From Flagellimonas pacifica (GTDB taxonomy: Bacteria > Bacteroidota > Bacteroidia > Flavobacteriales > Flavobacteriaceae), in the NCBI RefSeq assembly GCF_900215465.1, contig NZ_OBEH01000002.1, positions 62,001 through 126,000 of the forward strand: a stretch of DNA of 64,000 bases, given 5' to 3'. Below, one piece after another: positions 9,499-24,487 of the stretch (position 1 is its first letter; each line of letters opens with the position of its first letter). Made by a program: the position numbers and the translations under genes. The notes below the pieces were generated by a model, which saw only the letters and a list, made by a program, of their open reading frames with translations, was not told the origin of the DNA and searched no databases.

Positions 9499-10308
9499 AT
9501 GAAAAGGTTTATTATTACCGTAGCAATTTTTTTAGCGGTTGCTGCATGCAAGACAAATCCGTTTACTGGGAAAAGTACGCTTAACTTTTATCCCAACAGT
9601 CAAATTTTCCCAATGGCATTTGCCCAATACGATCAGTTTTTGACTGATAATAAGGTTGTAACTGGGACATCAGATGCGCAAATGATTACCAAAGTTGGGC
9701 AACGTATTTCCACAGCCGCGGAGCGCTGGTTAGATGCCAACGGTTACCCAGGCTATCTAAAAGATTATAAATGGGAGTACAATTTGGTAAATGATGAAAC
9801 CGTAAATGCATGGTGTATGCCAGGAGGTAAAATTGTATTTTATACTGGTATTTTACCAATTACCCAAACGGAAACAGGCGTTGCCGTTGTCATGGGGCAT
9901 GAAGTAGCCCATGCATTGGCAGATCACGGAGCACAACGTATGAGCGCTGGTATGCTGCAACAAATAGGAGCAGTTGCCGGTAATGTAGCAATTAAAGATC
10001 CTCAAAAACGAAATACCTTTAATCAAGCATATGGGTTAGGGTCAACATTAGGGGTAATGCTCCCTTTTAGCAGAAACCATGAAACCGAAGCAGACAGGAT
10101 AGGGTTGCAAATCATGGCCATAGCGGGGTATAATCCAGATGAGGCTGCGAACCTTTGGAGGAGGATGAAAGCCAAATCCGGAGGTCAAGCACCGCCAGAA
10201 TTTATGAGCACCCATCCATCAAACGATACAAGAATAAACAACCTCATGGCTTGGGCACCGGCTGCAAAACAAGAAGCGGCCAAATATGGGGTAACATCAT
10301 TTAAATAA
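9499..10308 (+). CDS. M48-family metalloprotease lipoprotein
   Basis: Zinc endopeptidase of 269 aa, related to the BepA/LoiP group that clears misassembled outer-membrane proteins. It has a lipoprotein signal (AVAAC, Cys near residue 18), the zinc motif HEVAH (His134, Glu135, His138) and the third ligand Glu195 in HETEADRIG. Anchoring at the periplasmic face of a membrane is expected. It lies 38 bases after the GH31 gene and is closed by a large terminator hairpin before the MFS gene. Confidence 0.9.
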   Translation: MKRFIITVAIFLAVAACKTNPFTGKSTLNFYPNSQIFPMAFAQYDQFLTDNKVVTGTSDAQMITKVGQRISTAAERWLDANGYPGYLKDYKWEYNLVNDETVNAWCMPGGKIVFYTGILPITQTETGVAVVMGHEVAHALADHGAQRMSAGMLQQIGAVAGNVAIKDPQKRNTFNQAYGLGSTLGVMLPFSRNHETEADRIGLQIMAIAGYNPDEAANLWRRMKAKSGGQAPPEFMSTHPSNDTRINNLMAWAPAAKQEAAKYGVTSFK

Positions 10309-10331
10309 CCAATTGATAAACCAAACTGTAG

Positions 10332-10400
10332 TGCCATTTAGAGTGAAGCGGAAAATCTGAAAAGATTTTCTCCCTTGGCTTTAAATGGCATTTTTATTTT
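10332..10400 (+). terminator. Long-stem rho-independent terminator
   Basis: Outer stem TGCCATTTA / TAAATGGCA encloses an inner hairpin GAAAATCT / AGATTTTC, followed by TTTTTATTTT. It ends the M48 transcript, although the MFS start codon lies only nine bases past the T tract. Confidence 0.75.
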
Positions 10401-10408
10401 ATTGAACC

Positions 10409-11734
10409 ATGGAAAAAGTACTCGCATTAAAAGGAAGTAAGAAATTGTTGAATGCTTGGGCTTTTTATGATTGGGCCAACTCTGTGTACAGTTTGGTGAT
10501 TTCTTCGGCTATTTTTCCAATTTTTTATGGAGCATTGTTCCGGGTGGCCGAGATAGAAAAAGTAACCATATTAGGTGGTGAGATTGCCAGAGCCCCATTG
10601 ATTAGTTACGTTACCTCCCTTGCTTTTGTTTTTATAGCTATTATTACCCCTTTGGTATCGGGAATTGCGGATTATTTGGGGAACAAAAAGATTTTTCTTC
10701 AATTTTTTTGCTATTTGGGTGCACTGTCTTGCATTGGATTGTATTGGTTTTCGCTGGAGAATATTTATTTTGGGTTAACCTGTTATTTCTTTGGTTTAGT
10801 TGGTTTTTGGGTAAGCTTTGCTATCAACAATTCTTATCTACCGGATATTGCTTTTCCTGAACAACAAGATGGCATAAGTGCCAAAGGATTTTCATTGGGT
10901 TATGTAGGTAGCGTAATCTTATTGGTATTTAATCTTGCTATGGTTATGCAGCCTGCCGTTTTTGGTATTACGGATAGTGGGGGAGAGGTAGCCGAGGTCA
11001 AGGCTATGAAATACTCTTTTATTTCAGTTGGAATCTGGTGGATTTTGTTTAGTCAATATACCTTCTTACATCTACCTAAGGGATATAAAAAGGAAGGAGC
11101 GCGCACCAATATTGTCTTAAACGGATTCAAGGAATTGAAAAGTGTATGGAAGCAATTAGGTGCGGAGACTCAGCTTAAACGCTATTTAGGCGCTTTCTTT
11201 GTCTACAGTATGGCAGTGCAAACCATTATGTTGATTGCAACTTATTTTGGTGAGGAAGAAATTAATTGGGGGACGGATAGCGAACGTACAACTGGACTTA
11301 TTATCAGTATTTTGGTTATACAGATTGTTGCAATTTTTGGGGCCACAATAACCGCAAGAGCTTCAAAAAGCTACGGAAACATTAAGACTTTGATCGTTAT
11401 CAATTTGATTTGGATGTTACTATGTATCTACGCCTATTTTTTACAAACCCCAATGGATTTTTATATTGCTGCCGGATTTGTGGGTGTCGTAATGGGTGGA
11501 ATTCAGGCTTTATCTCGTTCAACATATTCCAAATTTTTGCCAGAAACTACAGATACCACTTCGTTTTTCAGTTTTTATGATGTTGCTGAAAAAATAGGGA
11601 TAGTGATAGGTACTTTTTTATATGGTGCCGTGGCTCAACTCACCGGAAGCATGAGAAACAGCACCATCTTTTTAGGGTTGTTCTTTTTGGTGGGAATGTT
11701 CTTATTGACAAGGGTGAATAAAAAAAGTAGATAA
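10409..11734 (+). CDS. UMF1/Atg22-like MFS transporter
   Basis: Integral inner-membrane transporter of 441 aa with about twelve hydrophobic helices. The N-terminal AWAFYDWANSVYSLVI signature is the hallmark of the UMF1 (vacuole effluxer Atg22-like) branch of the major facilitator superfamily. Bacterial substrates are not established; the yeast homologue exports amino acids from the vacuole. Downstream, an NTF2-like lipoprotein gene starts one base after the stop codon, so the two are co-transcribed up to the terminator at 12256. Confidence 0.85.
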   Translation: MEKVLALKGSKKLLNAWAFYDWANSVYSLVISSAIFPIFYGALFRVAEIEKVTILGGEIARAPLISYVTSLAFVFIAIITPLVSGIADYLGNKKIFLQFFCYLGALSCIGLYWFSLENIYFGLTCYFFGLVGFWVSFAINNSYLPDIAFPEQQDGISAKGFSLGYVGSVILLVFNLAMVMQPAVFGITDSGGEVAEVKAMKYSFISVGIWWILFSQYTFLHLPKGYKKEGARTNIVLNGFKELKSVWKQLGAETQLKRYLGAFFVYSMAVQTIMLIATYFGEEEINWGTDSERTTGLIISILVIQIVAIFGATITARASKSYGNIKTLIVINLIWMLLCIYAYFLQTPMDFYIAAGFVGVVMGGIQALSRSTYSKFLPETTDTTSFFSFYDVAEKIGIVIGTFLYGAVAQLTGSMRNSTIFLGLFFLVGMFLLTRVNKKSR

Positions 11735-11735
11735 A

Positions 11736-12251
11736 ATGGTAAATTTTCAAAACATAAGTTATATAGCTAGATGCTTATTGCTATCAACGATTATTTTACC
11801 ATCTTTTTTTTCATGTGAGAGAGTCAAGAAACAGAATATTGCCAAAACTGTTGAAGAGTATTACGATACTTTTAAGGAAAGGAAAGATTTTGATAAGTTC
11901 ATGTCATTTTATGACGATGAGGTTGTTCTAGAGGATGTAGTGAATGCAGATAGAATTATAGGAAAGAAAGAACTTACTGAGTTTTTCGATTGGAATAACC
12001 CAGATTTTCAAAAAGGAGCTGCTGATGCTCTGGTCATTTATGAACAGATTATTGAAGGTAATAAAGTTGTTACACGAGGCTATTATACGGAATTTCTTTG
12101 GGGAGGAACAAAGTTTGAAGCTATGCATTTTGTTATGATACTAACTTTTAACGAATCCGGTAAAATTATTAAGCATATAGATTGGATTAATTACCCATCA
12201 AATTTGATTGACTATAACAATAGAAGAAACTCCAACGAATGGATCAGGTAA
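11736..12251 (+). CDS. NTF2/SnoaL-like lipoprotein
   Basis: Protein of 171 aa with a lipoprotein-type signal (hydrophobic residues 10-25 ending FFSC, Cys near 27) and a domain of about 120 residues resembling the SnoaL-like/NTF2 cone fold (YYDTFKERKDFDKFMSFYDD... pattern, with an aromatic-rich second half). The fold holds small ligands or serves as a protein partner, and no catalytic residues can be assigned. Translation is probably coupled to the MFS gene, whose stop codon is one base upstream. Another NTF2-like lipoprotein lies at 18876 on the other strand. Confidence 0.65.
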   Translation: MVNFQNISYIARCLLLSTIILPSFFSCERVKKQNIAKTVEEYYDTFKERKDFDKFMSFYDDEVVLEDVVNADRIIGKKELTEFFDWNNPDFQKGAADALVIYEQIIEGNKVVTRGYYTEFLWGGTKFEAMHFVMILTFNESGKIIKHIDWINYPSNLIDYNNRRNSNEWIR

Positions 12252-12255
12252 TAAA

Positions 12256-12290
12256 AAGCCCGAACCTTTAGGTTCGGGCTTTCTGTTTTT
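12256..12290. terminator. Bidirectional terminator
   Basis: Perfect 12-bp stem AAAGCCCGAACC / GGTTCGGGCTTT with a four-base loop, followed by a T-rich tract and preceded by an A-rich tract. It separates the convergent NTF2-like lipoprotein (plus) and DUF2807 (minus) genes. Confidence 0.85.
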
Positions 12291-12345
12291 GATTGATGGT
12301 TCCGATACCTCGGAAGCTTGTTTTTGATTGGTGATAAACTCCGTT

Positions 12346-13071
12346 CTATCCTCTGGATATATCTCCAGAACCAGAAGATTTACTATTAACTTTTTTAGGA
12401 TTTCCACGATAACTGATATCACCAGAACCAGAGACTCGGGCATCTATAGCTTGATTTGCTGTAACCCTTATATCAGCAGAACCAGAGACCTGAGCGGTGA
12501 CAAACTCTGCTTCTAGCTCATAAGCCTTTACATCTCCAGAGCCTGAAACCTGAATGTCAAGATCTGTGGTTTTTCCCTCTAGATTTATGTCTCCAGAACC
12601 AGATAGGGCAGCTTTTACACTTTGTGCATCTACAGCTAGGGAAATATCACCTGAACCGGACATTCTGGCACTAAAGTTATTTGACTTCAATGTAGTTCTG
12701 CCCACAATATCACCTGATCCGGACAAAGCTACAGCATCGATTTGTTCTACAGGTACGGTAATCATAATTCCGGAATTCCAGTTGGAAGGTCTAAGATTTA
12801 CTCCTTTTTTAACCTTGATTACCAATTTCCCATCCTTTACCTCTGTTTTGATGTATTCGAGCAGGTTTGATTCTCCCTTTAAGGAAATTTCACCCTCGTT
12901 CCCGTCAACCAGTTCCACATCAAACCAACCTGCCAACGCAACTGCATCATATTCACCAACAGATCTTTCTATGGTTACAACATTTCCGTTCCCTTTTACT
13001 CTTTTGCCCCATTGAGCATTTGTAATGGCTACCATTGATAGCGCTAATCCTAATGTGATTAATTTTTTCAT
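12346..13071 (-). CDS. Head-GIN domain (DUF2807) protein with GSGD repeats
   Basis: Exported protein of 241 aa with a signal peptide (cleavage after about residue 19, TNAQ). It folds as a putative auto-transporter adhesin-like beta-helix: the motif SGSGDI or a close variant recurs about every 20-22 residues (seven times) in the C-terminal half. It is the last gene of the minus-strand operon sigma factor - anti-sigma - DUF4097 - DUF2807. Proteins of this kind are common beside ECF sigma factors in Bacteroidota and are probably envelope-associated. Their molecular role is unknown. Confidence 0.85.
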   Translation of the reverse strand: MKKLITLGLALSMVAITNAQWGKRVKGNGNVVTIERSVGEYDAVALAGWFDVELVDGNEGEISLKGESNLLEYIKTEVKDGKLVIKVKKGVNLRPSNWNSGIMITVPVEQIDAVALSGSGDIVGRTTLKSNNFSARMSGSGDISLAVDAQSVKAALSGSGDINLEGKTTDLDIQVSGSGDVKAYELEAEFVTAQVSGSADIRVTANQAIDARVSGSGDISYRGNPKKVNSKSSGSGDISRG

Positions 13072-13098
13072 GATTGTGTTTTTGGTATTGTTTTTTGA

Positions 13099-14193
13099 TT
13101 AATTCTGATAAAATGTAACTCCTCCATATTCACTGTTGATGTATACCGTGTTTCCGGAATTTTCTTTGCCATAATAGCCCTTGTAATATTTTTCGCTTGA
13201 CTTTTCTTTACTGATATTGATTTCGAAAGCATCTTTTCCACTTACACCTGCATATTCTGTAGAAATTTCAAAATCAAAATGGTAACCAGGGTTATATCCT
13301 ATTTTCACCCCTGTGTAATCGGTTTTAATGTTCATATCTCCAGCATCAGGAGCCATTTCACTGATTTTTAAGGAACCATAATCTGATGTGATACTGACAT
13401 TGCCGTGCACAGTTCCCAATTTAACCCCAATATAGTCGCCGTTACCATTTATGTTATTTAAGTTATCGACCTGAATGGAGCCATAGTCACTGGAGTAATC
13501 CAAATTGCCCATTTCTTTTATCACAGCGTTGGTATAATCTGCTCTAACGTTAAGGTCTCCAGCTTTTTCAACTGTGAATCCTGAATAATCTGCTATGATT
13601 TCACCACTATTGATATAGTCAAAGGTTGACCGGGAGGTATAATCAAATCTCAGCTCGTTGTTCCTGCCCCTTAATTCCCCAACATCAATTTTTCCGTAAT
13701 CACAATTAATTTTTGCGTGCCCGTCAACACGGTCTAAATAAATGTTTCCGTAGTCATTGCTCAAATGAACACTGTTTTTTACAGGAATTTTAATGGTATA
13801 GTTGACCTGTACACTTACATTGTTTCGCTTTCCCCATTTCCAGCCCCAATTTCTATCACGATCTCCAAAAAGAGTCCTAGCAGAAACCATACTGGCATTA
13901 TTCTCAAAGCTAACGTCTATTTCGTTCAATCTATCTTGAACTTTCTCCTCGTTATTGCCGTTGGTCTTTATGTGTACTTCAATAACTACCCTGTCTTCAT
14001 TCCAAGAGGTAATATTAAGGTTGCCATAGCTGTTTTTTACTTTAAAGAGCGCATCGGAGTTTACGTTGAACTCTTTTTTTATGGTCTTTTCTTTGGTGTA
14101 TTTTCCGCCCATTTTCCCCGTATTGGCACTTAGGGCCATGGGAAGCAGGGTTAGTGCCAAAAAGACATATTTATATAGTAAAGTTTTCATCAT
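13099..14193 (-). CDS. DUF4097-family exported beta-helix protein
   Basis: Protein of 364 aa with a signal peptide (residues 1-22, ALSA) and a repetitive beta-structured body. Short strands of the type DYGNI, DYGSI, DYTGV and EYAGV recur about every 20 residues, giving a right-handed helix comparable to DUF2807. It starts inside the 3' end of the anti-sigma gene (23-base overlap) and is followed by the DUF2807 gene 27 bases on. It probably works with that protein in the envelope, where it may be an output or a sensor of the sigma factor. This is inference from gene order. Confidence 0.8.
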   Translation of the reverse strand: MMKTLLYKYVFLALTLLPMALSANTGKMGGKYTKEKTIKKEFNVNSDALFKVKNSYGNLNITSWNEDRVVIEVHIKTNGNNEEKVQDRLNEIDVSFENNASMVSARTLFGDRDRNWGWKWGKRNNVSVQVNYTIKIPVKNSVHLSNDYGNIYLDRVDGHAKINCDYGKIDVGELRGRNNELRFDYTSRSTFDYINSGEIIADYSGFTVEKAGDLNVRADYTNAVIKEMGNLDYSSDYGSIQVDNLNNINGNGDYIGVKLGTVHGNVSITSDYGSLKISEMAPDAGDMNIKTDYTGVKIGYNPGYHFDFEISTEYAGVSGKDAFEINISKEKSSEKYYKGYYGKENSGNTVYINSEYGGVTFYQN

Positions 14194-14731
14194 TGTATGA
14201 TTTTAAATTCTTAATGTTTTCAATATTGGTCAATACCTCTTTTAATAAATCTATTCTTGTTTGGAAATTGGTGATCATGGCATTAAGGATAATTTTACTA
14301 TCCCCACCATTTATCAGTTCTTTTTCCAAGTTTTGGTAGTTTATTTCCAATTTGTCCAGTTGTAATAAAGTGTCATCTACCAGTTTGGCCGTTTCAGGTG
14401 ATTTTTCATCCTTGAGCAATTGAATTTGTTCCTCAATAAGACTAGCAAAATAGAATTCAGTTTGTGATACTTCTGGCGAAATTTCGACCACCTGCTCCTT
14501 AATACTTGGTTCAGTGTTGAACACTTGTAGCCCAAGTAAACAAACAATGACCACAGAAGCTGCAATGGACAAAGGTTTCCACCAGTTTGTCTTTTTCTTT
14601 TGAAGCGTAACCACTCCGTTTGCTTTGTTCAGTTTTTCTAAAAACCGATCTTGGTGCCCCCCTCTTGGTTCTTCATGGTCAAAATCACCTTGAAGCCTTT
14701 CAAACAGCTGATTTAAGTTATCTTTCTTCAT
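14171..14731 (-). CDS. Probable anti-sigma factor (single-pass membrane protein)
   Basis: Protein of 186 aa with a cytoplasmic N-terminus of about 45 residues, one transmembrane helix (about 48-67, PLSIAASVVIVCLLGLQVF) and a periplasmic C-terminal coiled-coil-like part. Its start overlaps the sigma-factor stop by 4 bases and its 3' end overlaps DUF4097 by 23 bases, so all are coupled. No named anti-sigma domain (such as a zinc CxxC with His) is visible. The call rests on topology and on its place directly after the ECF sigma gene. Confidence 0.65.
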   Translation of the reverse strand: MKKDNLNQLFERLQGDFDHEEPRGGHQDRFLEKLNKANGVVTLQKKKTNWWKPLSIAASVVIVCLLGLQVFNTEPSIKEQVVEISPEVSQTEFYFASLIEEQIQLLKDEKSPETAKLVDDTLLQLDKLEINYQNLEKELINGGDSKIILNAMITNFQTRIDLLKEVLTNIENIKNLKSYNDENFTI

Positions 14732-15291
14732 ATCCCTGCATTTACAGTCAATTTTTTCCTCAGACTTTCTTTAGCTCTAGAAATCGTTGTTCTACAATTT
14801 GCGTAGCTAATGTTCATGATATCACTGATTTCTTCGTAATCGTACCCTTCAACTAAATGTAAGGTCAAAGAAACTCTGTAATTGTCTTTTAAACTTTTCA
14901 TGGTTTCCATCACTTTTTGAGCCTTCAGTTCAGTATAACCATCGTGATTCAAAGCAACTTCATCATTATCTTCGACCCTGTACATTACTTCATCCAAATC
15001 CACAGCTCTTGTTTTTTGCTGTTTTTTGTAATGATAAATACTGTTGTTGATCACAATTCGCTTTAACCAGGCCCCAAAGGCGACATCCCCCTTAAATGTG
15101 TGCAGTTTCGTAAACGCGTTCAAAAACGATTCCTGCATTACATCTTCAGCTTCAGCCGAGTCTTTTACAATCCTAAAAGCTGTATTGTACATAGCTTTGT
15201 AATAGCGATTGTAAATTTCCAATTGTGCACTTTGTTTTCCTTTTAGGCACGATTGAAGCAGTGCATCAGTATGTTCATTTTGGTGGCTCAA
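14728..15291 (-). CDS. ECF-type RNA polymerase sigma factor
   Basis: Sigma-70 family protein of 187 aa. Region 2 lies at about residues 25-95 (YNTAFRIVKDSAEAEDVMQESFLNAF, then FGAWLKRIVINNS) and region 4 at about 125-180 (YRVSLTLHLVEGYDYEEISDIM, then CRTTISRAKESLRKKL). There is no region 1.1 or 3, as in extracytoplasmic-function sigmas. It heads the operon encoding a membrane-bound likely anti-sigma and two exported beta-helix proteins, and probably controls it in response to an envelope signal. Its own promoter is not recognisable as the housekeeping TAnnTTTG type. Confidence 0.92.
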   Translation of the reverse strand: MSHQNEHTDALLQSCLKGKQSAQLEIYNRYYKAMYNTAFRIVKDSAEAEDVMQESFLNAFTKLHTFKGDVAFGAWLKRIVINNSIYHYKKQQKTRAVDLDEVMYRVEDNDEVALNHDGYTELKAQKVMETMKSLKDNYRVSLTLHLVEGYDYEEISDIMNISYANCRTTISRAKESLRKKLTVNAGI

Positions 15292-15364
15292 AAAATGAAT
15301 GGTTTGTCTTATAGATTGATGAATTTATCAATTGTTACACTTTTTCTGAAATTTTAATTTTTAA

Positions 15365-15379
15365 TGGCACAAGAATTGC
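15365..15379 (+). promoter_or_regulatory. Sigma-54-like promoter upstream of lon
   Basis: TGGCACAAGAATTGC matches the RpoN consensus TGGCAC-N5-TTGC, with the essential GG and GC dinucleotides separated by exactly ten bases. A start near 15391 would give a lon leader of about 117 bases. No TAnnTTTG housekeeping box is visible in the 215-base gap. A 19-codon ORF (MKKNLNAMV..., 15390-15449) begins at the predicted start site and is probably not translated. Confidence 0.5.
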
Positions 15380-15507
15380 CTTTATAGAGATGAAAAAGAA
15401 CCTAAATGCCATGGTATTACTTAGTTTGAAGGAATTACAAAGGTGTTAGGTTCTGGAATAAACTGACGATATGGGTTATTTGTGACAAAATGGCCGAAAG
15501 ATAAGAT

Positions 15508-18008: not shown

Positions 18009-18701
18009 ATGGAAAAAATCACCATAGCCATAGATGGATACTCATCAACAGGTAAAAGTACGGTAGCTAAAAAATTGGCAGCCGAGCTCAATTATATTTA
18101 TGTAGATACCGGGGCCATGTATAGAGCTGTAACTCTATTTGCCATTGAAAATAGTTGCATTGGGGATACTGATAATATTCCAGGTTTAATTGAAAATTTG
18201 CCCAACATCAACCTAAATTTTGTTCCGAATAAAGAATTGGGTTTTTCCGAAATGTATTTGAATGGTAAAAACGTAGAAGGGGAAATAAGAACCATGAAAG
18301 TTTCTCGAGAGGTGAGCAAAGTCGCCACTATTCCAGAAGTACGTCACAAATTAGTGGAAATGCAACAGCAGATGGGTAAGGAAAAAGGTTTGGTAATGGA
18401 TGGAAGGGATATTGGCACTGTAGTTTTTCCTGATGCCGAATTAAAAATATTCATGACTGCCTCTGCCAATGCCCGTGCAACCCGGCGTTACAAAGAATTG
18501 TTGGATAGGGGAGAGGATGTTTCCTTTGAAGAAATTCTGGAAAATGTACAAAAGCGTGATTTTATTGACTCTACACGAGAAATTTCTCCATTGAAAAAAG
18601 CTGAGGATGCCATTAAATTTGACAATAGCGATATGGGACTGGAAGAGCAGTTTGAACGAATCCATGATTTTGCTTTAAGGGTTATTGAAAAGCAAGGGTA
18701 A
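18009..18701 (+). CDS. cmk: Cytidylate kinase
   Basis: Phosphorylates CMP and dCMP to the diphosphates. The 230-aa protein carries the P-loop GYSSTGKS (residues 10-17), the nucleotide-binding DGRDIGTVVFPDA stretch and the C-terminal REISPLKKAEDAIKFDNS region. It is complete. Its last 20-27 codons are repeated in diverged form at 21821-21889 and 22585-22662, which marks its 3' end as a site of past recombination. The copy attached to the gene reads through to its own TAA without interruption, so the enzyme should be functional. Confidence 0.97.
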   Translation: MEKITIAIDGYSSTGKSTVAKKLAAELNYIYVDTGAMYRAVTLFAIENSCIGDTDNIPGLIENLPNINLNFVPNKELGFSEMYLNGKNVEGEIRTMKVSREVSKVATIPEVRHKLVEMQQQMGKEKGLVMDGRDIGTVVFPDAELKIFMTASANARATRRYKELLDRGEDVSFEEILENVQKRDFIDSTREISPLKKAEDAIKFDNSDMGLEEQFERIHDFALRVIEKQG

Positions 18702-18875
18702 TGCGGTTGAGGGATATAAGTTCGATGCCAAGCGTCTAAAAACATTTTTTTGGAATGCATTTATCGATTGGGTTATGGTTTTGTTGCGGAATAAGGATTT
18801 CCAACAGGAAATTCCACCACAATAAACTAGAGGCGTTATTGTAACTAGTTTTACTAAACTAATATTTACCTTTTC

Positions 18876-19310
18876 TTAAAACCCCCGTACAAAACTTACG
18901 GTGCTAATAAGTCCTTTTTCAACTTTATAGATTGAAATGTATTTTTGTTCTTTTCCATCTGTGGTTACAATTTCATGGTTAATAACGTAAGGTCCATTAT
19001 CCATTTGATTTACAACCTTAACAGCAACAGCTTTGTTTTCGAAGTCTTTTTTAAATATAGAACCTAATCTATCGGAACCAGTTCCCATTAACTTATCTGG
19101 ATAGGTATAAACTTCTACATTGGTGTTATAGAGCTTTATAAATTCGTCATAATTATGCTCATTAAAATAATTCATTCTTTTAGTTACCACTGCTAATGGT
19201 GTTAAGTTTGAATAATTTTGTTGAGCATCTTTAGCATTGCTGGTTTTTGAGTTGTCTTTACAAGCGATGAAGAAAAAGATTATTAAACCTAAGATTGTTA
19301 TGTTTTTCAT
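18876..19310 (-). CDS. NTF2-like lipoprotein
   Basis: Protein of 144 aa with a lipoprotein signal peptide (FFFIAC, Cys near residue 17) followed by an NTF2/SnoaL-like domain (MNYFNEHNYDEFIKLYNTNVEVY... pattern; C-terminal YISIYKVEKGLISTVSF). Probably a ligand-binding or accessory envelope protein, with no catalytic residues assignable. It is the last gene of a tight minus-strand set (ankyrin protein, DinB lipoprotein, this gene) with gaps of only 7-11 bases. The set lies in the accessory stretch downstream of cmk. Confidence 0.7.
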   Translation of the reverse strand: MKNITILGLIIFFFIACKDNSKTSNAKDAQQNYSNLTPLAVVTKRMNYFNEHNYDEFIKLYNTNVEVYTYPDKLMGTGSDRLGSIFKKDFENKAVAVKVVNQMDNGPYVINHEIVTTDGKEQKYISIYKVEKGLISTVSFVRGF

Positions 19311-19321
19311 ATGATTATGTT

Positions 19322-19918
19322 TTAGTTTTTAGGAAAATTTATATCGTTTTTAATTTCTTTAATTTGCTCTATATGGCGGTTAGTATGAGCAGCCATATAC
19401 AAGAAAAGTTGATATGTATCAATGGTTCCAAAATTCACATAGTGATTTCTTAAATCATCTTTTGTTTTTTTTAGATAGTCAATATGTTTTTCTAGTTTCA
19501 CTTTATAAGTGTTAACAGTTTTAGTGTGACTGCCAAAAGTGTTATTGGGTTCGAAATCTTCTTCCGTTTTAGTTTTATTTGCTCTGTCTTGTACGAACGC
19601 AATCAATTCTTTATCTGAAAATTTCACATCTTTGCGCCGTTCAGGGTTTGAGGGAAGCTCAAGAGATTCTTCCAATATTTCAAATACCTTATCGACAAAA
19701 ATGGTGACATGCTCTGTACATTCTGCAACAGACCAAGATGTTTCATTAATTTTAAAGTTTAATTGCTCAATACTCAAGCTATCTATGGTACTCAATAAAT
19801 TGTCTTTTGATTTATTTAGCTCTCCAATAGCAAAATCTCGTTCTTTTTTAGACAATTTAGTATCACTCGAACATTGAATAAATATTAATAGCATAAAGGG
19901 AATTAAAATTTTTCTCAT
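19322..19918 (-). CDS. DinB-superfamily lipoprotein
   Basis: Protein of 198 aa with a lipoprotein signal (LIFIQC, Cys16) followed by a DinB-like four-helix bundle (LSTIDSLSIEQLNFK..., WSVAECTEHV, and C-terminal AAHTNRHIEQIKEI). The three histidines are at positions expected for a DinB metal site. DinB proteins are normally cytoplasmic, so an envelope-anchored version is unusual. Function unknown. It lies between the ankyrin-repeat and NTF2-like genes in one transcription unit. Confidence 0.75.
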   Translation of the reverse strand: MRKILIPFMLLIFIQCSSDTKLSKKERDFAIGELNKSKDNLLSTIDSLSIEQLNFKINETSWSVAECTEHVTIFVDKVFEILEESLELPSNPERRKDVKFSDKELIAFVQDRANKTKTEEDFEPNNTFGSHTKTVNTYKVKLEKHIDYLKKTKDDLRNHYVNFGTIDTYQLFLYMAAHTNRHIEQIKEIKNDINFPKN

Positions 19919-19925
19919 AGTTATT

Positions 19926-20450
19926 TTATCTGATTTTTAATATTCGCTTTGTTAAACCCTTTTGTATAAAGTAATTTTCAAGTTCTTTAGATTCTCCAAC
20001 CTGTGCATGATGAAGTAATGTAAGACCATGTGCTCCTTTTGCAAAAAGCAGTTCTGGATAGGTTTCAATAGCAGGTTTTACTAAATTGGTTTTGCCCAAC
20101 ATTGTTAATGCAAAAAGATTGGGTCTAGCGCCTTGGGTTATAAAATAGTTTACAATTTCCTTGTTACCTAAATGAGCCGCACCTTCAATTGCTTCTTCGT
20201 AATCACCATTTCCCCAATCGTAAGAAGTATAAATTAAATTTGGATGCTCGTTTAGCATCTCTTTTACCAATTCTAATTTTGAATGACCAGCAATTACAAA
20301 ATCTTTTATCAGTTTTTCATCTAACTGGTTAGGTTCAATTTTAGTTGGGCTGGATTGCTCTTTTTTTGATTTTGAAAGAAGATATGAAGGTACTGCAAAT
20401 GCTGTTCCCACCCCTAAAAGGGAACCGTATATAAATTTTTTTCTATTCAT
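19926..20450 (-). CDS. Exported ankyrin-repeat protein
   Basis: Protein of 174 aa. The N-terminus has a basic segment and a hydrophobic stretch (residues 3-24) that could be a signal anchor or a Tat-like leader without twin Arg. Then come about four degenerate ankyrin repeats (for example EAIEGAAHLGNKEIVNYFITQGARPN near 95-125 and GLTLLHHAQVGESKELENYFIQKG near 140-165). A protein-protein interaction role is likely and the partner is unknown. A perfect 9-bp inverted repeat abuts the start codon. Confidence 0.7.
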   Translation of the reverse strand: MNRKKFIYGSLLGVGTAFAVPSYLLSKSKKEQSSPTKIEPNQLDEKLIKDFVIAGHSKLELVKEMLNEHPNLIYTSYDWGNGDYEEAIEGAAHLGNKEIVNYFITQGARPNLFALTMLGKTNLVKPAIETYPELLFAKGAHGLTLLHHAQVGESKELENYFIQKGLTKRILKIR

Positions 20451-20482
20451 ACTGAATACGTTTTGTTCTTCAATATTCAGTA
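20450..20482 (-). promoter_or_regulatory. Inverted repeat at the start of the ankyrin gene
   Basis: TACTGAATA and TATTCAGTA form a perfect 9-bp inverted repeat separated by 15 bases. One arm includes the first base of the start codon. It could be a regulator operator or, in the mRNA, a hairpin that restricts ribosome access. There is no T tract, so it is not a simple terminator of the AraC gene upstream. Confidence 0.45.
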
Positions 20483-20536
20483 ATACCTCAATAAAATACT
20501 TTAAAAAACACGTTTCCTATAACGAAAAATGGTCTT

Positions 20537-21538
20537 TTATCCTTTTCTAAAAGCTGAAGGGGTTACCCCGGTTTTCTTCTTAAAGGCAAGATTGAAAGAT
20601 GTAACATTCCCAAATCCAGAATCATATGCAATAGTGGCAATTTTTGCTTTCTTATAATGGCAATCTCTCAGCAAAAATTGAGCTTTTTCAATACGATATT
20701 GATTAACAAAATCATAAAAATTTTGTTGCACATTTTCATTAATGGCTTGCGATATTTCTCTTGATTTTACATTTAATTTTTCAGAAACGGTGTTCAGCGT
20801 TAAATTATCATCTAAATAAATCTCTTCGGAATTGAAAAGCTCCTTGACTCTTTGAAACAATTTTGCAGAACTTTCTTTATCTAAATTAGAGCTGCTATAC
20901 TTCTGTAAGTTAAATTTATGTCGGTTTAAGAAGAGATAGCTAAATGCATAAATTAAGAGCGAATAAAAAATAGGACCTCTTATGTAATACATTTCAAAAT
21001 CAAAAAGATTGCCCACATAGTGAAGCCAAATTAGCGAAGCGCCAATTAGAATATTACGATACCAGGCCATAATACTTTTGGAAACAATGTTTTTGTTTTT
21101 GCGAAGATTTGACCATGATAGAATTAGATAAGATAGGAGATGAAAGACTACTATACCGTAGTTCCACAAAGACTCAAAACTGCCTTTTCTTGGTACAAAG
21201 GGAATTAAAAAGAGGAATAAAATAAAGGGTATATAATGAAGGTAATCTTTTCCTGAGAGCGAACTATTTTTATCAAAAAGTGCTTTGCCATAAAACCATA
21301 ATGATGGCGATGCAAACAAAATTCCTGAAATACCAATATTGTTTTGCCAATTTTCTAATGGAACATAATAGTTCAATACAGATTTACCTACTCTAATGGT
21401 TAAGCCTAACAAGAAAAGACCAAGAAAAAAATGAGCATTTCTATTCCCTGTTTTAAGTGTAAATAGGTAGAGACTCAAAAAAAGCCCCTGGGCCAAACCA
21501 AGAGATGCAAGAATAAGTATGAGACCTGTTGTTAGCAT
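20537..21538 (-). CDS. AraC-family regulator with membrane-embedded N-terminus
   Basis: Protein of 333 aa. The N-terminal ~210 residues form about six or seven hydrophobic helices. The C-terminal ~100 residues form an AraC-type double helix-turn-helix (VSEKLNVKSREISQAINE, then AYDSGFGNVTSFNLAFKKKTGVTPSAFRK). This architecture is common in Flavobacteriaceae and suggests a membrane sensor that binds DNA directly. It precedes the ankyrin-DinB-NTF2 gene set on the same strand, which is its most likely target. Its own regulation is not visible. Confidence 0.85.
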   Translation of the reverse strand: MLTTGLILILASLGLAQGLFLSLYLFTLKTGNRNAHFFLGLFLLGLTIRVGKSVLNYYVPLENWQNNIGISGILFASPSLWFYGKALFDKNSSLSGKDYLHYIPFILFLFLIPFVPRKGSFESLWNYGIVVFHLLSYLILSWSNLRKNKNIVSKSIMAWYRNILIGASLIWLHYVGNLFDFEMYYIRGPIFYSLLIYAFSYLFLNRHKFNLQKYSSSNLDKESSAKLFQRVKELFNSEEIYLDDNLTLNTVSEKLNVKSREISQAINENVQQNFYDFVNQYRIEKAQFLLRDCHYKKAKIATIAYDSGFGNVTSFNLAFKKKTGVTPSAFRKG

Positions 21539-21820
21539 TTAGTAAACTTTAAGTAAAGTAGATTTATTATTGTCAAAAATCAACTTTTTTCACTAAAATG
21601 CTTTAAAGAACATGTACCCTTCAATAAATACCATTGTGTGAACTCTTTTAAATTGGCTACAATGACCTGCTAAATGTAGTTTGGGAAATTTCAGGTAAAA
21701 ATCCAATGCAAATTGATGGATGAGCGCTATGAATTGACTAATGCAGTAATAAATGAGTTTTGAATTCCTTCCCTTCAACTGCGCTCAGGGTAACATGGAA
21801 AGTGGATTGCTGCCAAAAGG
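21539..21820. other. Non-coding gap inside the accessory region
   Basis: No convincing gene. A 61-codon minus-strand reading frame (21593-21778) lacks any recognisable family or start context. The stretch CTTCAACTGCGCTCAGGGTAACAT (21772-21795, quoted here only to locate it) resembles the dispersed tcgactgcgctc repeat family also seen at 29547. The gap runs directly into the detached cmk end at 21821. Confidence 0.5.
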
Positions 21821-21889
21821 TTGGAAGAACAGTTTAAACGAATCCATGATTTTACCCTGAGAGTTATTGACACGCAAAAAAGGCATTAG
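21821..21889 (+). pseudogene. cmk: Detached 3' end of cmk (copy 2)
   Basis: An in-frame 22-codon segment plus TAG reads LEEQFKRIHDFTLRVIDTQ then KRH. It matches the C-terminus of the resident Cmk (LEEQFERIHDFALRVIEKQG) at 16 of 20 positions. There is no start codon or upstream kinase sequence, so it is a stranded gene end. The changes include silent third-base differences (for example GAG to GAA, TTA to CTG), suggesting divergence in a functional gene before it was cut off. Confidence 0.85.
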
Positions 21890-21916
21890 ACATTATCATA
21901 TGCCCAATACAAATAT

Positions 21917-22291
21917 TCAGTTCATTTGCTTTTTTCGAATTGCAAACTGATATACGTCAATGACTTCAGATTTTTTGGAATAATCGTATTTTTCGTTTTC
22001 ATGCTTTCCAAATTTTAGTTCATATATGACATCCCTTATTTTTACTTCTTTTATTTCATTTAAATTTTGAAATGAAACTCTGTAGCTTTCATCATAATCT
22101 GGCCCATAAATTGCCCACTCGTTCTCCTGTGCCTTTTGAGTATTTTCAAAAACATCAACTGTAGGGAACCCTTTGATTTTTTGAACATAAGCAAGTTTAA
22201 TAAATATGTTTTTATAAGAAAAGGCATCAATATTCATTGCCATTCTTTTTAAATCAAACTTTTTAAACTTAAATGAGTTCGATTTTTTCAT
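21917..22291 (-). CDS. Hypothetical protein
   Basis: Protein of 124 aa with no signal peptide or membrane helix, rich in Lys, Phe and Tyr (N-terminus MKKSNSFKFKKFDLKRMAMN; middle EWAIYGPDYDESYRVSFQNLNEIKEV). It is not a family I recognise. It is the only gene between the two detached cmk ends (21889 and 22585) and is on the minus strand like the rest of the accessory set. The reading frame is uninterrupted and has protein-like composition, so it is probably a real cargo gene. Confidence 0.5.
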   Translation of the reverse strand: MKKSNSFKFKKFDLKRMAMNIDAFSYKNIFIKLAYVQKIKGFPTVDVFENTQKAQENEWAIYGPDYDESYRVSFQNLNEIKEVKIRDVIYELKFGKHENEKYDYSKKSEVIDVYQFAIRKKQMN

Positions 22292-22584
22292 TTTCTCTTA
22301 GCTTAGACACAACGTTTAAGATATGGTTCGTTTAAATGAGCTATATCACCCGATACAGAATCAAGTACAGCACAGGTAAATGAAGTTCGAGAATTTTGAT
22401 TTAAGAATCTAACCAAAATTGACAGATGTGGGATATGGATTCATAAATCTGGGGAGTTAGCCAATTTTATAAAGTTTTAGTATTGCTACTTCCCTTGGCA
22501 AGGGAAGGTGGACTCCAACCAAAGGTTGGAGGGCGGAAGGGATGTAATTGCATCCCAGTTAAAAAATATTTGAGGGTATTACTA
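22292..22584. other. Non-coding gap with hairpin repeat
   Basis: No gene is seen. The right half holds a three-hairpin element (22489-22556, listed separately). The rest is AT-rich and structureless to my reading, and ends at the third cmk 3' end. Confidence 0.5.
22489..22556. repeat. Triple-hairpin repeat element
   Basis: Three adjacent perfect hairpins: CTTCCCTT/AAGGGAAG (22489-22507), CTCCAACC/GGTTGGAG (22513-22531) and GGGATG/CATCCC (22539-22556). The compact palindrome cluster resembles REP/MITE-like elements of Bacteroidota genomes. It sits 28 bases upstream of the third cmk 3' end. Confidence 0.6.
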
Positions 22585-22662
22585 TTTGATAACAGCAATA
22601 TGGGATTGGAAGAGCAGTTTGAGCGTATTTATGAATGCTCGTTAAGGGTGATCCAAGAGTAA
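22585..22662 (+). pseudogene. cmk: Detached 3' end of cmk (copy 3)
   Basis: In-frame segment of 25 codons plus TAA reading FDNSNMGLEEQFERIYECS then LRVIQE. It matches the resident Cmk C-terminus (FDNSDMGLEEQFERIHDFALRVIE...) at about 19 of 25 positions. Many of the DNA differences are silent (GAC/GAT, AAT/AAC, GAA/GAG, CGA/CGT, ATC/ATT). It lacks the rest of the kinase. It is longer than copy 2 and lies 0.7 kb beyond it, just before the convergent esterase gene, whose stop is 14 bases away. Confidence 0.9.
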
Positions 22663-22676
22663 ATAGGACTTTTTGA

Positions 22677-23957
22677 CTATTCCCGTACTGTAGGAGTGGT
22701 GGTCTCAATATAAAAAAGACCATCAAAAACCTCGGGCAACACAAAAGAGTGCTGATTAAAATTAAACAACCTTCCTTTTTGCTTTTGTTTTAATGCCGAG
22801 TTTTCAGCTAAGTGTCTAAAGTCAATCATGGCATAGGGCCAACCTGTTTTTTTGATTGACTGCTCAATACTTGACTTGGATGGTTTGGCTATTGATACCT
22901 TCTTATCATTCACAAAATTGATAAACTCACCATCGTAACCTGTAAACCCAATGGCATACATTTGATCTCCGAATTCTTTTTTAAGAAAATGTCCCATAGG
23001 TAATATAGGGTCTAGACCTCTTGCTATATGAAAGTTGTGTGCCCAGATAATTACCTTTTTATCTTTATGTGTATTATTGAGCAACCAGCTCATATTACTT
23101 GCCATTTGCCGGTCTCTATCCATATCCTCAATATCTCCCCAGTATCTTTTTGCTTGCGATTCCAGACTATGTATGATTTCCTTCCAGAAACCTGAATTGT
23201 TTAAAAAAGTTGCCTCATTTGATTTAAGAGTGCTTAACTCAGATTTGAGATTGTTTACGACAATATAAAAGTCTGCTTTATCTTCATCGGTTACAGCTCT
23301 GTTCATGCCGATGATGTCAGCAACTTTTCTTTCAAAGACTTTCCATGATTCCTGATTCTGAATTTCTGATCCGTTTTTATCCAAGAACGTCTTCAAGTCA
23401 GCAACAAGATATTGTTTTGATTTTTCTCCTGTATGCTGGCTATCCATTCCGCAGAACAACAATGGTTTCGAACCCTGCATCTGATCATCCATATAATTGA
23501 ACAATGGCTTTACCTCGGTACTTGTTGCATACATATAAAACATACTGTTCAGAACTTCGTCCTTCATTTTTTTACCGTCTACCATGTTCTGCCATATTTT
23601 GGCACAATCATACATTCCGCTTTCAAAGGCCATGACTTCAAACCCCATTTCTTGATGAAGAAATTTGATTAATCTAACCTTGGCTGAATATGTGGAACCC
23701 CCTCCATGTGATTGTTCTCCCAAGAGTACGATTCTGGTATCACCAATTATATTTTTTAACGCCATTAAATCTGAAAAGTCGGTATCACCAGGCGAAATGG
23801 AACCTATTTCCACGGCAACCCCTTCAACCATGGAAGGTTTGGATTGTGCACTAATATTATTTAAATACAAAGAAAATAGCAGTAGACATATGATGGCAGA
23901 AAAGGTGTTGTTATGAAATATGGTTATGAATGGTTTCCTAAAATTAAGCTGCCTCAT
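22677..23957 (-). CDS. Erythromycin esterase-like hydrolase, exported
   Basis: Protein of 426 aa with an N-terminal signal peptide (hydrophobic 17-36, NISAQ) and an EreA/EreB-like domain: GEQSHGGGSTYSAKVRLIKFL with the family glutamate and histidine, FESGMYD, and WAHNFHIARG further on. The family hydrolyses macrolide lactones in resistance enzymes, but most chromosomal members have other, unknown substrates (including succinoglycan-biosynthesis-like proteins). Export to the periplasm argues against simple antibiotic resistance here. It is read toward the cmk 3' end copies and closes the accessory stretch. Confidence 0.85.
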   Translation of the reverse strand: MRQLNFRKPFITIFHNNTFSAIICLLLFSLYLNNISAQSKPSMVEGVAVEIGSISPGDTDFSDLMALKNIIGDTRIVLLGEQSHGGGSTYSAKVRLIKFLHQEMGFEVMAFESGMYDCAKIWQNMVDGKKMKDEVLNSMFYMYATSTEVKPLFNYMDDQMQGSKPLLFCGMDSQHTGEKSKQYLVADLKTFLDKNGSEIQNQESWKVFERKVADIIGMNRAVTDEDKADFYIVVNNLKSELSTLKSNEATFLNNSGFWKEIIHSLESQAKRYWGDIEDMDRDRQMASNMSWLLNNTHKDKKVIIWAHNFHIARGLDPILPMGHFLKKEFGDQMYAIGFTGYDGEFINFVNDKKVSIAKPSKSSIEQSIKKTGWPYAMIDFRHLAENSALKQKQKGRLFNFNQHSFVLPEVFDGLFYIETTTPTVRE

Positions 23958-24106: not shown

Positions 24107-24487
24107 CTAGATATTCGGAATAACCAAAACTTGATCAGGATGAATTACATCCGGATTCTTTAAGATGTTGGTGTTCGCATCAAAGATTTTGTTGTATTTC
24201 ATGGCATCTCCGTAATAGTGCTTGGCTATTTTGCTTAGAGATTCACCACTTTTTACTGTATGTCTGTGATAAACAGAATCATCAGAAACTGAAATATTGG
24301 CTTTAATATCACTTGGACTCTGCCCTCCAATTTCCTTGATTTTGTCCCAAATAACGTTCTTCTCGTATGGGGTATTTGCTTCACCTTTTATCTTTAGGAC
24401 TCCTCCTTCTTCAGAAACATCGCCATTTTTAATGGCCAATTGTTGTCCTAAATCTAACACTGCTTGGTATTTTGCCTTTGCGCTCAT
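24107..24487 (-). CDS. LysM-domain protein (BON-LysM, Kbp-like)
   Basis: Protein of 126 aa without a signal peptide. The N-terminal half (about 10-65) resembles a BON domain ([30 protein letters not shown]). The C-terminal half is a LysM module ([34 protein letters not shown]... near 73-124). This arrangement is that of the E. coli K+-binding protein Kbp (YgaU), a cytoplasmic potassium sensor, so Kbp-like is a better guess than a cell-wall enzyme. Divergent from rpsA. Confidence 0.8.

Follow-up and report, generated by a model that had tools for sequence, protein, structure and literature searches.

Behind the cytidylate kinase gene cmk of Flagellimonas pacifica, two further copies of the 3′ end of cmk are found before the conserved neighbour lysM is reached. 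We analysed this locus in a 64,000-nt stretch of DNA (assembly GCF_900215465.1, contig NZ_OBEH01000002.1, positions 62,001 to 126,000; hereafter the window) and in related genomes of the genus (Flagellimonas/Allomuricauda). At cmk and at other genes, accessory DNA ("cargo") separates the intact gene from a displaced copy of its end, behind which the ancestral neighbour still follows, with more than one event per locus. We think it probable that additive recombination, anchored in gene ends and with an illegitimate second junction, left the displaced ends, or tails, as its scars.

The preliminary description, made from the window alone, had proposed an alignment with the same locus in relatives, and this alignment yielded pairs that show the locus before and after insertion (genomes and loci are given as G and L numbers). 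The order in G019 is cmk, 2.9 kb of other DNA, a cmk tail, a 367-amino-acid (aa) gene and lysM; in G021 it is cmk, the 367-aa gene and lysM. The tail-to-lysM part of G019 (1300 nt) aligns to the whole cmk-lysM interval of G021 (1297 nt) with 991/1259 identities, and the 2.9 kb preceding the G019 tail is therefore an insert. The gene behind the displaced tail of G019 adjoins intact cmk in G008, G018 and G021. Both this pair and the pairs at other genes agree with the earlier proposal that repeated additive events at the cmk 3′ end pushed the older tail downstream. Directly 5′ of the displaced cmk tail in G008, G019 and G028 lies a terminator-like hairpin of the kind found beside lysM (by eye), an arrangement suggestive of a donor cmk-lysM fragment joined at this point.

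Such events are not special to cmk, because pairs or displaced ends also occur at purB, lon and lysM. The purB gene is present in 59 of the 60 genus genomes searched, and six genomes hold seven displaced purB ends, which are 31-55 codons long, lie on the same strand and all reach residue 446 or 447 of 447. In G005, G019 and G028, purB is followed directly by a native 271-aa gene; in G017, G060 and G006, a cargo gene (each unique among 10 loci compared) and a displaced purB end intervene between the two. Locus L072 has lon, ~0.4 kb of cargo, a displaced lon end, the native spacer and cmk, where G026 has lon and the spacer alone. Ends of lysM are displaced in four loci (G020, G024, G026 and L072).

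The window itself is arranged as follows, LE and RE being the two ends between which many cargo genes sit (see below):

18009..18701, plus strand: cmk, the intact cytidylate kinase gene and anchor gene (Pfam PF02224, E 4.9e-70)
18745..18766, plus strand: degenerate LE core starting 43 bases past the cmk stop, matched to the LE consensus by eye; the LE profile reported no match for it at E 0.01
18876..21538, minus strand: newest cargo, comprising a 144-aa protein, a DinB-like protein (198 aa), a 174-aa protein and an AraC-type regulator (333 aa), all convergent to cmk
21648..21736, plus strand: partial RE on the 5′ side of the AraC gene (nhmmer E 3e-6)
21819..21889, plus strand: displaced cmk tail 2, in frame with its own stop, recognised by similarity to the cmk end
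21917..22291, minus strand: second-layer cargo, a 124-aa protein without a Pfam family
22308..22441, plus strand: RE on the 5′ side of the 124-aa gene (nhmmer E 1e-21)
22584..22662, plus strand: displaced cmk tail 3, in frame with its own stop; its counterpart is decayed in G064 and relocated in G065
22677..23957, minus strand: oldest cargo, an erythromycin-esterase-like protein of 426 aa (Pfam PF05139)
24107..24487, minus strand: lysM, the conserved far border of the interval, whose own 3′ end is displaced in other species

Alignment and DNA search both confirmed what had first been noticed here, two further in-frame cmk 3′ ends, each with its own stop and with the rest of the kinase absent. 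In ungapped register the three copies lie at 18617-18695 (cmk), 21799-21877 (67%) and 22584-22662 (77%), the match proper of the second beginning at 21819. The similarity is thus real, and the residue counts needed correction: tail 2 shares 15/19 residues with the cmk end (previously given as 16/20) and stops with TAG at 21887-21889, while tail 3 shares 18/25 (previously 19/25) and stops with TAA at 22660-22662. In a search with 96 non-duplicate cmk gene ends, the best DNA match of tail 2 was the window's own cmk (47/56, E 1.3e-11) and that of tail 3 was the cmk end of G005 (59/68, E 3.9e-18); nothing of cmk except its 3′ end matched in the cmk-lysM interval. The grouping that the preliminary description had named as its refutation, all three copies closest to one another, was not seen in these matches: own cmk is closest to tail 2 and ranks 7 of 43 for tail 3, and tails 2 and 3 align with each other across 29 bases only. 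Repeats resembling repetitive extragenic palindromes (by eye) lie directly 5′ of both tails, at 22488-22541 and about 21770-21800. A tRNA search of the window found none, and the only Rfam match, being under its gathering score, was taken as chance.

The 96 queries were searched against 43 cmk loci of the genus. The counts exclude nine named loci that duplicate a G genome, G023 lies outside the set with its cmk cut by the contig end, G064, G065, G069 and G073 are also not among the 43, and the intervals of G002, G006 and G012 are cut since no lysM is on the contig. This search returned 11 displaced cmk tails in 10 of the 43 loci (two in G000 and one each in G001, G005, G008, G017, G019, G028, L069, L078 and L079), all sharing the orientation of cmk; the loci of other genera yielded none. 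Two matches, each to a single query and both in one 10-kb stretch of the distant genome L124, came up in the reversed control. Limiting a rerun to lysM-bearing loci added three matches (in L072, in L078 and, on the minus strand, in G018) that 1 to 4 queries gave at about E 8e-4; these were left uncounted, and the reversed control of this rerun had 0 matches.

Genus loci with long enough contigs keep the order cmk, lysM (convergent), rpsA and pyrR, with lon preceding cmk except in G003 and the cut G029. For other genera, lysM was near cmk in 30 of 53 loci, at a gap of 24-161 bp in 29 and 398 bp in one. The genus gap runs from 49 bp to 5.4 kb and is 60 bp or less in 3/43 (3/43 are cut before lysM). 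These intervals are filled with accessory genes, and 88 of their 95 open reading frames (ORFs; at least 75 aa) point towards cmk. The idea that tail recurrence is a general property of genes was rejected by two counts: only cmk (4) and lysM (2) had recurring 3′ ends among 333 ORFs of 18 genus cmk regions, and 669 ORFs taken from 40 evenly spaced 20-kb stretches of two genomes gave 1 weak free tail copy, plus 4 inside other ORFs. Because the ORFs elsewhere gave so little, we take the pattern to be confined to certain genes.

Within the window, the esterase gene next to lysM, together with tail 3, is the oldest layer. Homologues of the esterase occur in G032 (73%), G064 (82% over 426 residues) and, away from cmk, G065 (70% over 410). 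The G064 gene stands beside lysM, and a decayed stretch before it matches tail 3 with a score of 41 against a maximum of 30 in 200 shuffles; none of three other cmk ends tried on this stretch beat its own shuffles. In G065, a 163-nt cmk tail is joined to the esterase gene at the same end as in the window, but 125 kb from that genome's own cmk; this relocated old layer lies on the other strand at 6207-7624 of L335 (G065:C1:138000-152000). Nearer cmk, neither the 124-aa gene nor the block of four genes was matched at E 1e-6 in any other cmk locus compared. Shared cargo beside lysM and unmatched cargo nearer cmk is the order expected, and therefore fits new layers being added next to cmk.

What could produce such layers? 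We suggest that an incoming segment carrying a cmk 3′ end and downstream cargo would pair with the resident cmk end, and that a crossover would leave cmk intact but with the incoming end. Within the resident cmk end, the far end of the segment would be joined on the basis of scant homology or none, so that the resident tail would be cut off its gene and pushed downstream together with older cargo. Repetition would build up layers, the oldest next to lysM, and lysM, purB or lon could serve as the starting point too. We infer that the process is homology-facilitated illegitimate recombination or a single crossover of a tail-carrying circle, and that the route is probably natural transformation. 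ComEC and DprA families were found in G000, which lends weak support to this route, since the Escherichia coli control matches too. On the anchor side, the cargo is bordered by the intact and displaced ends of cmk, purB, lon and lysM. Scar starts vary between insertions (detected lengths are 29 to 155 nt at cmk and 31-55 codons at purB), and well-preserved cmk scars differ in length as well (e.g. 63/69 in L079, 122/146 in L069). Illegitimate joining is favoured over an integrase because of these differing starts, the several anchor genes and the hairpins directly before three scars.

The cargo was searched for enzymes that could have moved it. None of the six window cargo proteins belongs to an integrase family, in line with the first reading that no integrase lies between the tails. 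At E 0.001, no integrase, transposase or recombinase family was detected in the 95 cargo ORFs of the 43 genus intervals, and 9 additional cargo ORFs, including 5 from purB, had none either. The 95 ORFs thus lack the transposase expected of a transposon with terminal inverted repeats, although a non-autonomous element would lack one too. Across the 60 genus genomes, no integron integrase exceeded the curated cut-off of TIGR02249 (0/60); tyrosine-recombinase matches below the integron cut-off were present in 60/60 genus genomes and in 14/14 control genomes. The commonest cargo family is that of the serine beta-lactamase-family hydrolases (PF00144, 8 of the 95 ORFs), and the cargo also contains two HigB-type toxins with helix-turn-helix proteins, by sequence those of G001 and G005.

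Many cargo genes sit between two ends with sharp borders, LE (TTTTGGAATTGCACTTATCGGT..., 54 copies aligned) and RE (about 130 nt, 84 copies aligned). At E 0.01, RE was found in 26/43 and LE in 12/43 genus intervals. RE matches in the 43 loci number 37 on the plus and 1 on the minus strand (35 and 0 inside the intervals), and LE matches inside the intervals 14 and 0, the LE profile having been built partly from the same loci. The reversed control gave 0 matches for LE and RE, and other genera gave one RE match. More widely, RE occurs in 45/60 genus genomes and, with few candidates scored there, weakly in 10/198 further genomes of the family. Elsewhere in the genomes, at loci picked by an LE or RE match, 45 RE copies were examined; 39 had an ORF within 150 nt, and in 35 of these RE lay on the 5′ side of a cargo gene. 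For LE, 31 copies were examined, and a convergent ORF followed within 400 nt in 24/25. RE can form a hairpin with compensatory changes: across 44 distinct stems the paired fraction is 0.718, compared with at most 0.695 in 1000 shuffles, which ignore relatedness. LE and RE have about 10 inverted bases in common, by eye (CACTTATCGG / CCGATAAGTG), and no target duplication was delimited beside them. No LE was seen at lysM-side insertions.

The fixed orientation of these ends (35/35 RE and, with a profile drawn partly from these loci, 14/14 LE inside intervals on the plus strand) speaks for site-specific integration at gene ends, in which a trans-acting integrase would use a cassette attachment site containing the gene 3′ end, in the manner of islands that insert at the ends of tRNA genes and certain protein genes. 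Such integration would also agree with scars that reach the stop region while the gene stays intact, and with the G017 purB repeat, which is identical over 103/103 positions and ends at the stop codon; the sub-threshold tyrosine-recombinase matches in every genus genome leave room for the enzyme. We nevertheless regard it as unlikely, as scars start at varying points, the genes involved are several and unrelated (cmk, lysM, purB, lon and others), the 95 + 9 cargo ORFs hold no integrase, transposase or recombinase family, and the lysM-side insertions are without a visible LE. A cassette array of integron type without a local integrase, RE being a recombination site read by an integrase elsewhere, could account for the single orientation of 88/95 cargo ORFs, for the compensatory changes in the RE hairpin (0.718 versus at most 0.695, shuffles ignoring relatedness) and for a stretch of G065 with six RE copies between genes. 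It appears highly improbable given that 0/60 genomes have an integron integrase over the curated cut-off and that RE is found 5′ of the cargo gene (35/39), unlike attC, which lies behind the stop. By eye, the attC boxes were unmatched, and LE, at the 3′ side, was likewise compared with them by eye. A further reading, conceivable but doubtful, is that LE-gene-RE units form an undescribed cassette system of Flagellimonas/Allomuricauda. A captured housekeeping-gene end would be its homology address, the unit would dock behind that gene in one fixed orientation and leave the older end as a scar, and cmk, purB and lon would be integrase-free platforms.

Several other stretches were observed in this connection. 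The G065 stretch (L284, G065:C1:4060001-4080000, 9878-15464, minus strand) has six RE copies in 5.6 kb that separate cargo genes and resembles a cassette array; several of the RE copies are followed by a closely similar stretch of about 90 nt. The lon-cmk gap of L073 and L068 (= G009) contains LE, immediately after the lon stop, and RE ahead of cmk; what may be a very short lon end (8-12 nt) follows RE. Two further host genes, in G035 and G072, show a similar picture. In G035 (L174, G035:C1:600871-612891), a transporter-like gene that is intact in G065 is represented by two successive ends (70% over 30 and 52% over 29 residues), separated by cargo, and RE is followed by a third match; the stretch examined stops short of the intact gene of G035 itself. 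These displaced ends, at 357-440 and 1897-1986 of L174, flank a 440-aa ORF (475-1798) that was rejected as a host gene, as it is cargo between the displaced ends of another gene; it resembles an AbiH-type phage-defence protein. G072 (L177, G072:C2:220389-232409) has a displaced 3′ end of an aminopeptidase-like gene (85% over 53 nt) ~1.4 kb downstream, with a Crp-like regulator between (both genes named by eye).

Were the displaced ends, or the intact ones, brought in from elsewhere? The evidence for a foreign origin of the tails is mixed. Own intact cmk was the best or tied best match for 6/11 displaced cmk tails and not for 5/11. For lon, the displaced end of L072 matches the native end of G026 and not the intact end of L072 itself, so that by sequence the displaced end looks native and the intact end imported. 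The two displaced purB ends of G000 have their own gene at ranks 6 and 8 of 37; by its body this gene is nearest to G064, and its intact last 100 bases place G064 at rank 11. The displaced purB end of G060, for which the own gene ranks 25/37, and the intact end belong to different lineages; the same relative ranked first for the intact end and for the gene body, which fits either end as the import. In G006, the last part of the displaced purB end is 64/65 identical to the own gene and the roughly 30 nt ahead of it still resemble purB yet have diverged, so that the two copies may have undergone conversion. The displaced end of G017 is identical to its own (103/103), and the repeat stops at the stop codon. 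The assertion that each tail is foreign therefore could not be upheld, given the mixed ranks, these two purB ends nearly identical to their own gene and the discordance test described below. Nor does the abundance of silent changes, from which divergence in a working cmk had been argued, carry much weight: tail 2 has 3 silent and 4 replacement codon changes and tail 3 has 8 of each, and an intact copy gains silent changes as well.

These comparisons also concern a purely local origin, in which the gene end would have been duplicated in tandem and then have decayed, genes being inserted independently. The 6/11 tails closest or tied closest to own cmk and the almost identical purB ends of G017 and G006 are what it would predict. 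Cargo between the tail copies and a native neighbour after the displaced tail speak against it, and it is contradicted for lon in L072, where the displaced end has its match in G026, and for purB in G060, though not in G017 and G006. Overall we judge it very unlikely.

Several results count against additive recombination at gene ends as we propose it. No donor was identified for any insert, and some of the spread in scar length may be decay. We compared pairwise distances of 99-base windows with those of the rest of the gene, and the correlation for the last window was 0.508 for cmk (others 0.469-0.639) and 0.352 for purB (others 0.117-0.585), giving no excess discordance at either 3′ end. The near-identical purB ends of G017 and G006 could come from a conspecific donor, local duplication or conversion. 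LE and RE are left unexplained by the proposal, and when a displaced host end was looked for behind RE in 13 LE-RE cases, the result was clear in 3 (one purB array accounting for two of these), marginal in 2 and negative in 8.

If the proposed additive recombination is correct, gene-end scars are a readable record of the number, order and side of DNA additions at one spot, and would allow a genus-wide test, from sequence only, of gene acquisition without mobile-element enzymes. Additive insertion also explains why cmk and lysM, a conserved pair, can be separated by as much as 5.4 kb in one genus. It suggests that displacement arrays, known from secretion-system and toxin loci, form behind housekeeping genes as well. 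None of the literature matches listed, judged by titles and the starts of abstracts, dealt with these repeats or with gene-end scars of housekeeping genes. On our analysis, what appears new is displacement layers at housekeeping genes with an unexplained cassette family attached; the type of mechanism is already known.

Integrative elements at gene 3′ ends bring a copy that restores the gene end and displaces the old one. Here, by contrast, there is no integrase among the cargo, scar starts differ and several unrelated host genes are used. In Rhs and other polymorphic toxins, strings of displaced 3′ ends lie behind an intact gene, the 3′ ends being the variable part. Our loci share the displaced ends behind an intact gene, but in them it is the cargo that varies, the 3′ end being conserved. 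Homology-facilitated illegitimate recombination combines one homologous anchor with one illegitimate junction and adds foreign DNA, in laboratory events, whereas here natural layers recur at the same gene ends across a genus. This process is named for Acinetobacter, Pseudomonas and Streptococcus (PMC5361080, PMC8116780). The effector-immunity arrays of the type VI secretion system of Vibrio cholerae are described as built by displacement, a mechanism akin to homology-facilitated illegitimate recombination is proposed for them, and Rhs and polymorphic-toxin C-terminal displacement is named alongside them (Kirchberger et al., 2017, PMC5361080). Those arrays resemble the loci studied here in growing by successive addition at a conserved upstream anchor, with older parts moved downstream and no integrase known (PMC5361080). 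They differ in having a secretion-system anchor and in keeping immunity genes (PMC5361080), whereas the anchors here are housekeeping genes and the displaced part is the gene end only.

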